DNA of 33,360 nt from Alphaproteobacteria bacterium (GTDB taxonomy: Bacteria > Pseudomonadota > Alphaproteobacteria > Puniceispirillales > Puniceispirillaceae), in assembly GCA_009919335.1 (NCBI GenBank), contig RGCC01000005.1, forward strand, positions 1-33,360. Reading direction: 5' to 3'. Shown here piece after piece: positions 7,587 to 26,163 of the stretch. Each line of letters opens with the position of its first letter. Positions within the stretch are counted from its first letter, which is position 1. The notes beneath the pieces were generated by a model that saw nothing but the letters and a program-made list of their open reading frames with translations, was not told the DNA's origin and did no database searches. A program made the translations under genes and the position numbers.

Positions 7587-9437
7587 CTAGGTGCCACTAT
7601 AGAACCAATCGTAGATTTGTTGAGCATATTTTTTCGAAATTCCTTCAACGGCTTCCAAATCGCTCAAGCCAGCTGCCGAAACCGCGCGTGCCGAGCCGAA
7701 ATGTGCAAGGAGTGCCTTTTTGCGCTTTGGGCCGATGCCGGGCACTGCATCTAATGGGTTAGTGAATTCGGTCTTGGCGCGTTTGGCACGATGGGTGCCG
7801 ATTGCATAACGATGTGATTCGTCACGAAGTCGCTGCAAGAAATGCATGGCGGCACTGTCGGGAGGCAAGGTAAAGCTTGGGCGGCCACGGATATGGAATT
7901 GTTCGCGTCCGGCGTGCCGATCCGGCCCTTTTGAAATCGCCACGACCGCAAGATCATTAATCCCCAGATCGTCAAGTGCCTCATGCACCGCCGATAGCTG
8001 GCCAACACCGCCGTCAATCAGTAATAGATCTGGCCAATTGCCGGATTGGCGATCAGCGTCATCTTTTAGAGCGCGGGAGAAACGGCGGTGAATAACCTGA
8101 CGCATCATCGCAAAATCATCACCGATGGCAGTGGCAAATTTGCCCTCATCCTTAATGTTAAACCGTCGATAAGCGCCTTTTTCAAACCCATCAGGTCCGG
8201 CAACAACCATGCCGCCAACAGCATGTTTCCCCTGAATGTGTGAATTATCATAGATTTCAATACGGTTCGGCGGTTCCTGAAGGTCGAGCGACGAGGCATT
8301 GGCGAGGTGGCGTGACAATGCTTCTTCGGCGTTCTTTAGCGCCATGTCGGTAACCTTGCGACGATTGCCGCGAACCGGCTGGCTCAGCACGACCTTATGG
8401 CCGGCATTCCGGCTAAGCGCCTCGGCAAGCAGCAGGTGATCTTCGGGCATTTCGCTAAGCATGATCTCGGCAGGTGCTTCCTTATCTTCATAAAACTGAC
8501 CAATAAAGGCGCCAATCACCTCATGCGCCGGAGTATCGGTAAGATGGGTCAGGAAGTATGAGCGATTGCCATAGTTGGAACCGCCACGAATAAAGAATAT
8601 CTGAATACAGCTTCGCTCGCCACTGCGCGCGGCGGCGATGATGTCGGCGTCGCTAACGGTTGGCAGGTTGATATCTTGATTGGCCTGAATGCCGGTCAAT
8701 GCGCGAATTCGATTACGCCAGATAGCAGCTTTTTCAAATTCCAGCGCTTCAGCGGCGGCGTGCATCCGGGCCGCATATTCACGCTGAACATCGGCTGACC
8801 CGCCATCTAAAAACCGACGTGCCTGCGCCATTTGTTTGGCATAATCCTCGCGACTGACCAGCCCAACACATGGCCCTGAACAGCGTTTTATCTGATATTG
8901 CAAACAGGGGCGTGTGCGGCCGGAAAATACATTGTCCGAACAGGTACGCAGCATAAAGGCACGCGCCAGATCGGCAACAGTGCGGTTAACCGAACCTGCC
9001 GAAGCAAATGGCCCGTAATAATCTCCCTTGCGGTTTTTTCGGCCGCGATGCTTGGTCAGCTGTCCAAATTCATGGTCGTCAGTCAGCAGGATTTGCGGCA
9101 GGCTTTTATCATCGCGAAGCAGAATATTATAGCGCGGCTTCATCTTCTTGATCAGGTTTGATTCAAGCAGCAGTGCCTCAATTTCCGACTTTGTGACGAT
9201 GACTTCCAATTTCTTGGTCTCGCCAACCATTCGCATGATCCGGTTCGACAGACGGTTGGGCTGGGTATAGCTGGTGACCCGCCGAACGAGATTGCGCGCC
9301 TTGCCAACATACAGCACCTCGCCCGCCTCATTATGCATGCGGTAAACCCCGGGCTGACTTGGCAGCGTTTTTAGCTCGGATTTTAAATAGGTAATGCCGC
9401 GTTTTAAATTTGGCGGCATATTCAGGGCGTCATCCAC
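7587..9437 (-). CDS. uvrC: Excinuclease ABC subunit C
   Basis: UvrC makes both incisions in nucleotide excision repair after UvrAB loads UvrB at the lesion. The 616-residue protein has all domains: an N-terminal GIY-YIG nuclease ('GVYRMHNEAGEVLYVGKARNL'), a Cys cluster C166-C178-C186-C190 with the spacing of the reported UvrC Fe-S ligands, a UvrB-binding UVR helix pair (~200-240), the RNase H-like nuclease ('IEIYDNSHIQGKHAVGGMVV', 'DLLLIDGGVGQL'), and a C-terminal double helix-hairpin-helix ('AVPGIGPKRKKALLAHFG'). The start is uncertain: GTG 9437 gives the listed length, and ATG 9419 would drop six residues. Neither has a good ribosome-binding site. A plausible promoter lies at 9501-9529. Confidence 0.96.
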   Translation of the reverse strand: MDDALNMPPNLKRGITYLKSELKTLPSQPGVYRMHNEAGEVLYVGKARNLVRRVTSYTQPNRLSNRIMRMVGETKKLEVIVTKSEIEALLLESNLIKKMKPRYNILLRDDKSLPQILLTDDHEFGQLTKHRGRKNRKGDYYGPFASAGSVNRTVADLARAFMLRTCSDNVFSGRTRPCLQYQIKRCSGPCVGLVSREDYAKQMAQARRFLDGGSADVQREYAARMHAAAEALEFEKAAIWRNRIRALTGIQANQDINLPTVSDADIIAAARSGERSCIQIFFIRGGSNYGNRSYFLTHLTDTPAHEVIGAFIGQFYEDKEAPAEIMLSEMPEDHLLLAEALSRNAGHKVVLSQPVRGNRRKVTDMALKNAEEALSRHLANASSLDLQEPPNRIEIYDNSHIQGKHAVGGMVVAGPDGFEKGAYRRFNIKDEGKFATAIGDDFAMMRQVIHRRFSRALKDDADRQSGNWPDLLLIDGGVGQLSAVHEALDDLGINDLAVVAISKGPDRHAGREQFHIRGRPSFTLPPDSAAMHFLQRLRDESHRYAIGTHRAKRAKTEFTNPLDAVPGIGPKRKKALLAHFGSARAVSAAGLSDLEAVEGISKKYAQQIYDWFYSGT

Positions 9438-9529: not shown

Positions 9530-9688
9530 TGCCGCTAACGGGGGGATCACTGCCTCTTTTTTGCAGGTCAGGCTGTCCAGACGCGGGCGCCATAGCGGGC
9601 GTTGTTAAACGAATTGGCTGTGGCGGGTGAAGGGTAATTCAGCGGCGGCGAATCAGGTGTGATAATGACACGAAAAAGCGAAAAATTG

Positions 9689-9723
9689 TTTTCCACGAAA
9701 GCTGGGGATAAACCTGTGGAAAA
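9689..9723. promoter_or_regulatory. Cluster of three DnaA-box-like sequences
   Basis: Within 35 bases lie TTTTCCACG at 9689-9697 (plus strand), TTATCCCCA at 9703-9711 (minus) and TTTTCCACA at 9715-9723 (minus). The third is an exact match to the E. coli DnaA-box consensus TTWTNCACA and the other two differ at one position. The outer pair is arranged as an inverted repeat. A further exact match, TTTTGCACA, lies on the minus strand at 9904-9912. The AT-rich stretch lies immediately to the right, as a duplex-unwinding element would. Binding is not shown. Confidence 0.45.
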
Positions 9724-9731
9724 ACCCTCAA

Positions 9732-9819
9732 AAATTTTTATGGCTTACTGTTTTTCTACAAAAAAATACTCTTTGCCTAAAAAATAGGCATAAAAATTTA
9801 AATGAATGAAAACAGTAAG
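9732..9819. repeat. Crossed and nested inverted repeats in AT-rich spacer
   Basis: Three perfect inverted repeats are packed into 88 bases. Arm pair A is AAATTTTTATG (9732-9742) with CATAAAAATTT (9789-9799). Pair B is CTTACTGTTTT (9744-9754) with AAAACAGTAAG (9809-9819). Pair C is TGCCTA-AAAAA-TAGGCA (9774-9790). A and B interleave (A1 B1 A2 B2), so as single strands they would form either alternative hairpins or a pseudoknot. Function is unknown. Confidence 0.8.
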
Positions 9820-10000
9820 TTAAAATATTTCAAGAGAGAAAACGGCTTAGATCAATGTAAATTTTACGGCGACATCCGCAAATTAGGGCATTTTCGCAGA
9901 ACTTGTGCAAAACCATCACCGATTCGCCATCAGTTTATGACAATTATTGCATTTGCTGCAAAGCGGTGTGATCTAGAGGTGGCTTTGATTTTCAGCGCTG

Positions 10001-12130
10001 CTAGCGACGACGGCCACGTTTTTTGATTGGTGCGCCCGGGGTGCCGGCAGGAAACCCGTGTCGCTGCGCAATGGCGGCGGGAACGCCGGGTTCAAAAAGT
10101 CCAAGCTCGGCCGCTTCCATGCGTCTGATTTCGTCACGCAATCTTGCCGCTTCCTCGAATTCGAGATTGGCCGCCGCTGCTTTCATATTGGTTTCGAGAT
10201 CGGCAATCACGGTTTTGAAGTTGCTGCCAATCAAGTCGCCTGATTTGGCACCAGCTTGTGGCGTTAAATGATCACCGCGTTCGAACACCGAGTCCAGTAC
10301 ATCAGCGATATCCTTGCGGATCGATTCGGGGGTAATGCCGTTGGCTTCGTTATAGGCGGTCTGGCGTGCGCGCCGCCGGTTCGTTTCATCAAGTGCATAT
10401 TGCATCGAGTCGGTCACACGGTCACCATAGAGGATAACGCGCCCGTCGAGATTTCGCGCCGCCCTACCAATCGTCTGGATCAATGAGGTTTTCGAACGAA
10501 GGTAGCCTTCTTTATCGGCATCCAAAATTCCAACAAGCGCACATTCCGGAATATCCAGCCCCTCGCGGAGCAGGTTGATACCGATCAGCACATCAAAGAC
10601 CCCAAGGCGCAGATCGCGCATAATCTCGATCCGTTCAAGCGTATCAATATCGGAATGCAAATAGCGTACGCGCAAGCCGGACTCATACATATATTCAGAT
10701 AACGCCTCGGCCATCTTTTTGGTCAGGGTGGTGATGAGCGCGCGCTGTCCTTTGGCGGCAACATCACGGCATTCGGCAATGATATCATCAACCTGATTGA
10801 TGGTTGGCCGGACGATACAGTCAGGGTCGATCAATCCGGTTGGGCGCACCACCTGTTCACTGAAAACGCCGCCGGTTCGCTCTAGCTCCCATGTGCCGGG
10901 CGTTGCTGAAACAAAAATCGTTTGCGGGCGAAAGGCCTCCCACTCCTCAAATTTCAACGGTCGGTTATCAAGGCATGATGGCAGCCTGAACCCATATTTT
11001 GACAAGGTCGATTTCCGCGCAAAGTCACCCTTGTACATCGCCCCAAGCTGGGGCACGGTGACATGGCTCTCATCAATGATCAAAAGCGCATTTTCTGGCA
11101 GATATTCAAATAAGGTCGGCGGTGGCTCGCCGGGCCCGCGTCCAGAAAGATAGCGCGAATAATTTTCAATTCCCGCACAAACGCCAGTGGCCTCGATCAT
11201 TTCAACGTCAAATTGCGTTCGTTGTTCAATGCGCTGCGCCTCGAGCAACTGGTTATTGGCAGTAAAGACAGCGATCTGATCTTTTAGTTCCTGTTTGATC
11301 TGTTTGCAGGCTTGCTGCAATGTCGGTCGCGGTGTGACGTAATGCGAATTGGCAAAAATTGTGATGCTGTCGAGGCTGCCGTTTTTTGCGCCGGTCAATG
11401 GGTCAAACTCGAATATCGCTTCGATCTCATCACCAAAAAGTGAAATGCGCCATGCCCGATCTTCAAGGTGAGCGGGAAATAACTCAACCGAGTCGCCGCG
11501 CACCCGAAACGTACCACGGACAAAATTTGTGTCATTACGGCGATATTGCAATTCGGTGAGCTGGCGAAGCAGTTCCTGACGGGCAACGGTTTCACCCGTG
11601 GTAAGTTTTAACGTCATGCTGGAATAGGTTTCGACCGAACCGATACCATAAATACATGATACTGACGCAACAATGATTACGTCATCACGTTCAAGCAGCG
11701 CCCGCGTTGCCGAGTGGCGCATACGGTCGATCTGTTCATTAATTGATGATTCCTTTTCGATATAGGTATCCGAGCGTGGCACATAGGCCTCGGGCTGATA
11801 GTAATCATAATATGAGACAAAATATTCGACCGCGTTATTCGGAAAGAGCGAGCGCATCTCGCCATATAGCTGTGCTGCCAGAGTTTTGTTTGGCGCCAAA
11901 ATCAGTGTCGGTCGCTTGATTTCTTGGATGACATGAGCGGCGGTAAAGGTTTTGCCTGATCCGGTAACCCCAAGCAGCACCTGATCGCGTTCACCTTCCT
12001 TAATGCCGGCAATCAATTCGGCAATCGCGGTTGGCTGGTCACCGGCAGGCTTAAACTCTGAGGTAAGGTCAAAATTTGCCGGGCCGCTTGAGCGGGTTAT
12101 GATGAGGTTGTCGCTGCTGTTTTCGTCCAT
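10001..12130 (-). CDS. uvrB: Excinuclease ABC subunit B
   Basis: UvrB is the damage-verifying helicase-like subunit of the UvrABC repair system. With ATG 12130 the protein has 709 residues. Visible features are Walker A GVTGSGKT (54-61), the damage-probing beta-hairpin region '[20 protein letters not shown]', the DESH Walker B motif, motif VI 'QTIGRAARN', and a C-terminal UVR domain that binds UvrC ('[16 protein letters not shown]'). The frame continues to 12202. An alternative ATG at 12148 has GAGAAG directly before it, so the exact start is open. The C-terminal end is a short basic tail. No LexA box of the alphaproteobacterial GTTC-N7-GTTC type is visible upstream. Confidence 0.97.
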
Positions 12131-12242
12131 GTGGCATAAGATAGGCATCTTCTCGCCAAGAAGAAAGGGGGCACGGCGAAAAGCACTTGTTCTTGATGGC
12201 AAACCACCTCATAAATTTGAGAGACAAAGGGAGACCAGACCA

Positions 12243-26086: not shown

Positions 26087-26163
26087 GGGCCTGTAGTTCA
26101 ATTGGTTAGAACCCACGGCTCATAACCGTGTTGTTGCAGGTTCGAGTCCTGCCGGGCCCACCA
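26087..26163 (+). tRNA. tRNA with CAU anticodon (tRNA-Ile2 or elongator tRNA-Met)
   Basis: The 77-nt cloverleaf is complete with encoded CCA. The acceptor GGGCCTG pairs with CGGGCCC (one T-G). The D arm is GTTC/GAAC, the anticodon stem CACGG/CCGTG with loop CTCATAA (anticodon 26121-26123), and the T arm GCAGG/CCTGC with TTCGAGT. A G1-C72 pair excludes the initiator tRNA. The body resembles the alphaproteobacterial CAU tRNA whose C34 may be lysidinylated to read AUA, but elongator Met cannot be excluded by eye. The D stem carries a T-A pair where GCTC/GAGC is usual. It sits downstream of rpoD on the same strand. Confidence 0.95.

Follow-up and report, generated by a model that had tools for sequence, protein, structure and literature searches.

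The window, by which we mean the whole stretch of DNA analysed, is a 33-kb contig (33,360 nucleotides) from an assembly of 1.81 Mb in 261 contigs. Its uvrB and uvrC genes are separated by a spacer that an earlier note had proposed to be either a replication origin or a DnaA-binding locus. The two genes and the features of the spacer are as follows.

7587..9437, minus strand: uvrC, with its start ~252 bp from the core
9689..9697, plus strand: core DnaA box I, TTTTCCACG, which faces box II head-to-head across a 5-bp gap
9703..9711, minus strand: core DnaA box II, TTATCCCCA, oriented like box III and separated from it by 3 bp
9715..9723, minus strand: DnaA box III of the DARS-like core, TTTTCCACA, an exact match to TTWTNCACA
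9775..9789, no strand: GCCTAAAAAATAGGC, a perfect palindrome 51 bp away from box III and a putative Fis-type site by its fit to GnnYAnnnnnTRnnC
9799..9811, minus strand: degenerate IHF-like site, 7/9 positions, where most alphaproteobacterial copies hold an IHF consensus site
9812..9834, minus strand: promoter-like block CTTGAA...TTAACT...CTGT with a -35-like TTGAAA, kept in the genus and related genera
9904..9912, minus strand: accessory DnaA box TTTTGCACA, exact, 189 bp before box III
10001..12202, minus strand: uvrB

The four box-like 9-mers pointed out earlier (9689-9697, 9703-9711 and the exact matches at 9715-9723 and 9904-9912) are all present in the sequence, and a fifth DnaA box with one mismatch occurs at position 9752. 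The AT-rich stretch with inverted repeats was also confirmed: A+T content is 74% over 9724-9850, the 120-bp segment of highest A+T content in the window begins at 9745-9747, and the palindrome at 9775-9789 is perfect. Exact DnaA boxes number two in the whole window, against 2.6 expected, and 5 of the 46 relaxed boxes fall within one 240-bp stretch. It is the arrangement of the boxes, not the number of exact ones, that exceeds chance, since they cluster within 240 bp, their spacing recurs throughout the class, and 13 of 16 genomes in the genus retain the spacer sequence. All 12 retrieved copies from the genus sit between uvrB and uvrC. The blocks that are invariant in their alignment are the boxes, TGCCTATTTTTTAGGCA and CTTGAA, with a TTTTRCACA accessory box in most copies; the 9-mers are thus conserved in relatives that keep the spacer, which is where the earlier note had suggested looking for them.

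Three further observations concern the window. GANTC motifs, possible CcrM methylation sites, lie on either side of the element at 9650 and 9921 as an inverted GCGAATC...GATTCGC pair retained by several relatives in the genus. The CTTGAA...TTAACT...CTGT block is strongly conserved in the order and lies near the place taken by the IHF site in other alphaproteobacteria. A tRNA-Met gene (anticodon CAT) is found at 26087-26163.

Position of the element relative to the replication origin

In G004, a complete genome (2,592,803 bp) from the species of the window, the element is present at 730108-730428 with 100% identity. Cumulative GC skew, calculated from 20-kb stretches of this genome, has its maximum at ~0.22 Mb and its minimum at ~1.49 Mb, which divides the circle into two nearly equal halves; 2-kb resolution puts the minimum at 1.492 Mb. 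DnaA boxes at 1491439 and 1491473 lie at this minimum, between hemE and a Kinase-PPPase gene (COG1806, DUF299), and these flanks are those of the mapped Caulobacter origin (PMC1914354). The DnaA-box cluster between hemE and COG1806 is therefore probably the true oriC of the species, and the genome from which the window derives has a hemE/COG1806 spacer of its own, on contig C217. Likely oriC intervals are G004:C1:1491380-1491790 (L133 ~11380-11790) and G000:C217:5880-6245.

The uvrB-uvrC element is ~760 kb away from the hemE/COG1806 spacer of G004, in the middle of the arm, and is not flanked by hemE/COG1806, unlike the Caulobacter and Rickettsia origins. Distances between hemE and the element, worked out by hand with the contig treated as a circle, correspond to the following fractions of the arm: ~0.46 in G083, ~0.49 in G112, ~0.28 in G314, ~0.31 in G121, ~0.34 in G227, ~0.49 in G350 and 0.59 in G004. 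In every complete genome checked the element thus lies mid-arm, away from the origin. These data bear on the first half of the earlier proposal, according to which the uvrB-uvrC spacer is the chromosomal replication origin. An AT-rich stretch does adjoin the DnaA boxes, and DnaA boxes together with AT-rich DNA in a spacer are also found at the alphaproteobacterial oriC; that oriC is, however, another locus, with other flanking genes and situated at the skew minimum (~1.492 Mb, against 0.730 Mb for the element). Because the skew minimum falls on the hemE/COG1806 spacer, which carries DnaA boxes and exists in the window's own genome as well, the element is not oriC. With its mid-arm position added, the origin reading retains almost no probability, and we rejected it on the skew and the hemE/COG1806 spacer. 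As a separate observation, DnaA boxes are densely arrayed near position 1500 of locus L249 in a 0.8-Mb genome (G382), which is perhaps an origin.

Core geometry and conserved flanking sites

Read on the minus strand, the core is TTTTCCACA-GGT-TTATCCCCA-GCTTT-CGTGGAAAA, that is, a box, 3 bp, a second box, 5 bp and an inverted box. In E. coli, DARS1 and DARS2 are loci that help ADP-DnaA to exchange its nucleotide; both have equal spacing with box I opposite to boxes II and III, and both are situated between oriC and terC (PMC5742627). DARS1, in the bioD-uvrB gap, reads TAATACACA-TGG-TTATCCACA-GGAAT-AGTGGATAA, and DARS2, upstream of mutH, reads TCTTACACC-ATG-TTATCCACA-GAAAG-CTGGGATAA, with the DARS2 letters assigned to the core in this analysis following the published description. 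The head-to-head placement of boxes I and II is characteristic of DARS and essential, and is unlike oriC (PMC10380432). The window core has the same layout, with three boxes, gaps of 3 and 5 bp, box I opposite to boxes II and III, and boxes I and II head-to-head; the element is likewise intergenic and lies between oriC and the terminus. The second half of the earlier proposal, a DnaA-binding regulatory locus, is supported at the level of sequence, in that the box layout is that of a DARS core. Geometry and position together are what would place the element among DARS loci.

The core pattern with at most one mismatch was found in 21 of 72 genomes of the order and, with at most two mismatches, in 85 of 389 genomes of the class, while the reversed pattern gave 0 matches in both. 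When the gaps were varied freely over 65 alphaproteobacterial uvrC upstream regions, the 3/5 combination occurred in 32 regions, the next best combination in 4, and the median was 0. The core is usually present in a single copy per genome.

The palindrome GCCYAWWWWWTRGGC lies 50-52 bp upstream of box III in most of the 71 inspected loci that have uvrC downstream; the loci inspected include close relatives and some repeats. After removal of close relatives, all six defined positions of the Fis consensus GnnYAnnnnnTRnnC (PMC8682772) are matched in the palindrome of 43 of 55 loci. Further out, 29 of 48 loci match the IHF consensus WATCAANNNNTTR at 8 or more of its 9 positions, the match starting 20-22 bp before the palindrome; at any other offset from 13 to 119 bp on that strand, no more than one locus has such a match. 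This IHF site is degenerate in the window (7/9) and in its order. A fourth box, of the TTTTRCACA type, is carried by 16 of 48 loci at positions -187 to -191 relative to box III; this genus is among them. Scoring of core plus palindrome by a leave-out procedure, in a class sample chosen by uvrC alone, placed 35 of 64 uvrC upstream regions above threshold, compared with 0 reversed and 0 shuffled regions; the shuffled controls for palindrome and composite scoring preserve base composition but not dinucleotides.

The palindrome could fold as a hairpin and a -35-like block lies upstream, as would be expected of a structured non-coding RNA or a 5'-leader element. The conserved blocks correspond instead to protein-binding consensuses at fixed distances. 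No Rfam family matched above the cut-off, the one match below it was at chance level, and there were 0 compensatory pairs among 16 predicted pairs in 11 sequences. With no family and no covariation, we rejected an RNA element as very improbable. We also rejected the palindrome as the operator of a large regulon, its sole exact match in ~1.46 Mb of sampled G004 sequence being this site.

Relation to uvrC and occurrence beside other genes

In these 71 of the loci inspected uvrC is 6-313 bp downstream of the element, always on the same strand and with box I nearest to uvrC. Such a nearly constant association, with a single orientation, is also compatible with a function in uvrC expression. The spacer might accordingly be a DnaA-controlled uvrC promoter at which DnaA and a palindrome-binding factor tie excision repair to the replication cycle, with no nucleotide exchange. 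Beyond the proximity and fixed orientation of uvrC, such a reading gains from the -35-like TTGA(C/A) blocks upstream, but a clear -10 was not found, and a promoter does not account for box gaps identical to those of E. coli DARS1 and DARS2.

The composite element was also found INDEPENDENCE from uvrC at three loci, L282, L298 and L303, whose neighbour genes were named by recognition of their translations. L282 has what we take to be hisZ downstream of the element, together with a perfect palindrome and a near-perfect IHF site. At L298 the element lies between genes that are presumably xseA and cutA. At L303 it lies between presumptive folB and murein endopeptidase genes, ~1.4 kb from what appears to be uvrB; in this genome uvrC maps to another part of that contig. 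The composite thus persists beside genes where a pure uvrC promoter is not to be expected, and we consider it unlikely that the element is only that. A role in uvrC transcription may coexist with a DARS function. Several other non-uvrC matches to the core pattern have no palindrome and are probably other DnaA-box clusters.

A candidate DARS-type locus

The core geometry, the rigid spacing of palindrome and IHF site, the class-wide conservation, the mid-arm position and the occurrence without uvrC are the features seen, and on them we regard it as likely that the spacer carries a DnaA-reactivating locus of the DARS type in an alphaproteobacterial variant. The features that speak against this reading are the deviating box II of the window species (TTATCCCCA, versus TTATCCACA in most relatives), the degenerate IHF site of the lineage, the negative search for a short Fis protein in the complete same-species genome, and the ~45% of sampled class genomes that have no detectable element upstream of uvrC. 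The search for a short Fis-like protein in the same-species genome found none; it returned four HTH_8 (Fis-fold) matches, in ORFs of 223-486 aa.

E. coli DARS1 resembles the element in its 3-bp and 5-bp gaps and inverted box I, in being intergenic within the oriC-terC interval, and in adjoining a nucleotide-excision-repair gene. It differs in that this gene is uvrB, not uvrC, and stands in the other orientation to the locus, in its box letters, and in the absence, on visual inspection, of a Fis-like palindrome 51 bp away. DARS2 shares the core spacing and is accompanied by accessory DnaA boxes and by IHF-type and Fis-type sites; its gene neighbourhood is different. In its general plan (core, accessory box, IHF site, Fis-type site) the element recalls DARS2, as far as sequence can tell; in alphaproteobacteria the palindrome is at 51 bp and the IHF site ~20 bp further, both on the box III side, whereas the lineage of the window has a degenerate IHF site and no short Fis protein was found in it.

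DnaA boxes and an IHF site in a non-coding locus also make up E. coli datA, and a site for passive titration or of the datA type would sequester DnaA or, together with IHF, stimulate the hydrolysis of ATP bound to DnaA. datA, however, uses boxes 2, 3 and 7 and one IHF site, and is set apart by its published description (PMC10380432). The exact DARS I-III layout, the head-to-head boxes I and II characteristic of DARS, and the presence of few boxes in what is as a rule a single copy per genome make sequestration or hydrolysis at the spacer rather improbable.

If the element is of the DARS type, it would span ~225 bp, with DnaA protomers bound in tandem on boxes III and II and, facing the one on box II head-to-head, on box I; both DnaA binding to the boxes and nucleotide exchange at the element are inferred. 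By analogy with DARS1 and DARS2, ADP-DnaA on the core would touch its neighbour via the AAA+ domains, the head-to-head pair on boxes I and II would drive ADP release, and DnaA would depart as apo-DnaA. Once reloaded with ATP, the protein would restore the capacity for initiation at oriC, the distant hemE-linked locus. The complex may be shaped or activated by a factor on the Fis-like palindrome 51 bp away and, in most alphaproteobacteria, also by IHF at its site 20-22 bp past the palindrome, a role that IHF and Fis have at DARS2. Should the IHF site have decayed in the order of the window, activation would have to differ there. We see about an even chance that the element represents a class-wide, usually single-copy DnaA-reactivating locus, placed mostly before uvrC in a rigid architecture and needing an alphaproteobacterial counterpart of Fis, with the IHF site decayed in the window's order.

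DARS-like sequences occur in many proteobacteria according to one review citing Fujimitsu 2009, conserved DARS2 regulation has been described for beta- and gamma-proteobacteria, and V. cholerae has DARS-like sequences at places corresponding to those in E. coli (PMC6090056). Our literature search, the scope of which excluded Fujimitsu 2009 and Sugiyama 2019, found no published description of DARS in alphaproteobacteria. The element may bear on ATP-DnaA regeneration outside E. coli and its relatives. Were it to work as proposed, it would offer alphaproteobacterial cell-cycle models a small defined locus to delete, and its Fis-like palindrome could serve as bait for an initiation regulator. A link of DARS and DARS-like loci to nucleotide-excision-repair genes recurs, with uvrB in E. 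coli and V. cholerae and uvrC at the alphaproteobacterial element. Besides its uvrC-linked element, G350 has a second core-like match (L228; G350:C1:3868319-3868353). On the box III side this match lacks a palindrome at 51 bp, but when the sequence is read in reverse a GCCTAATTTTTAGGC palindrome lies ~50 bp away from the core on that side, and the match could be a second DARS-like site.
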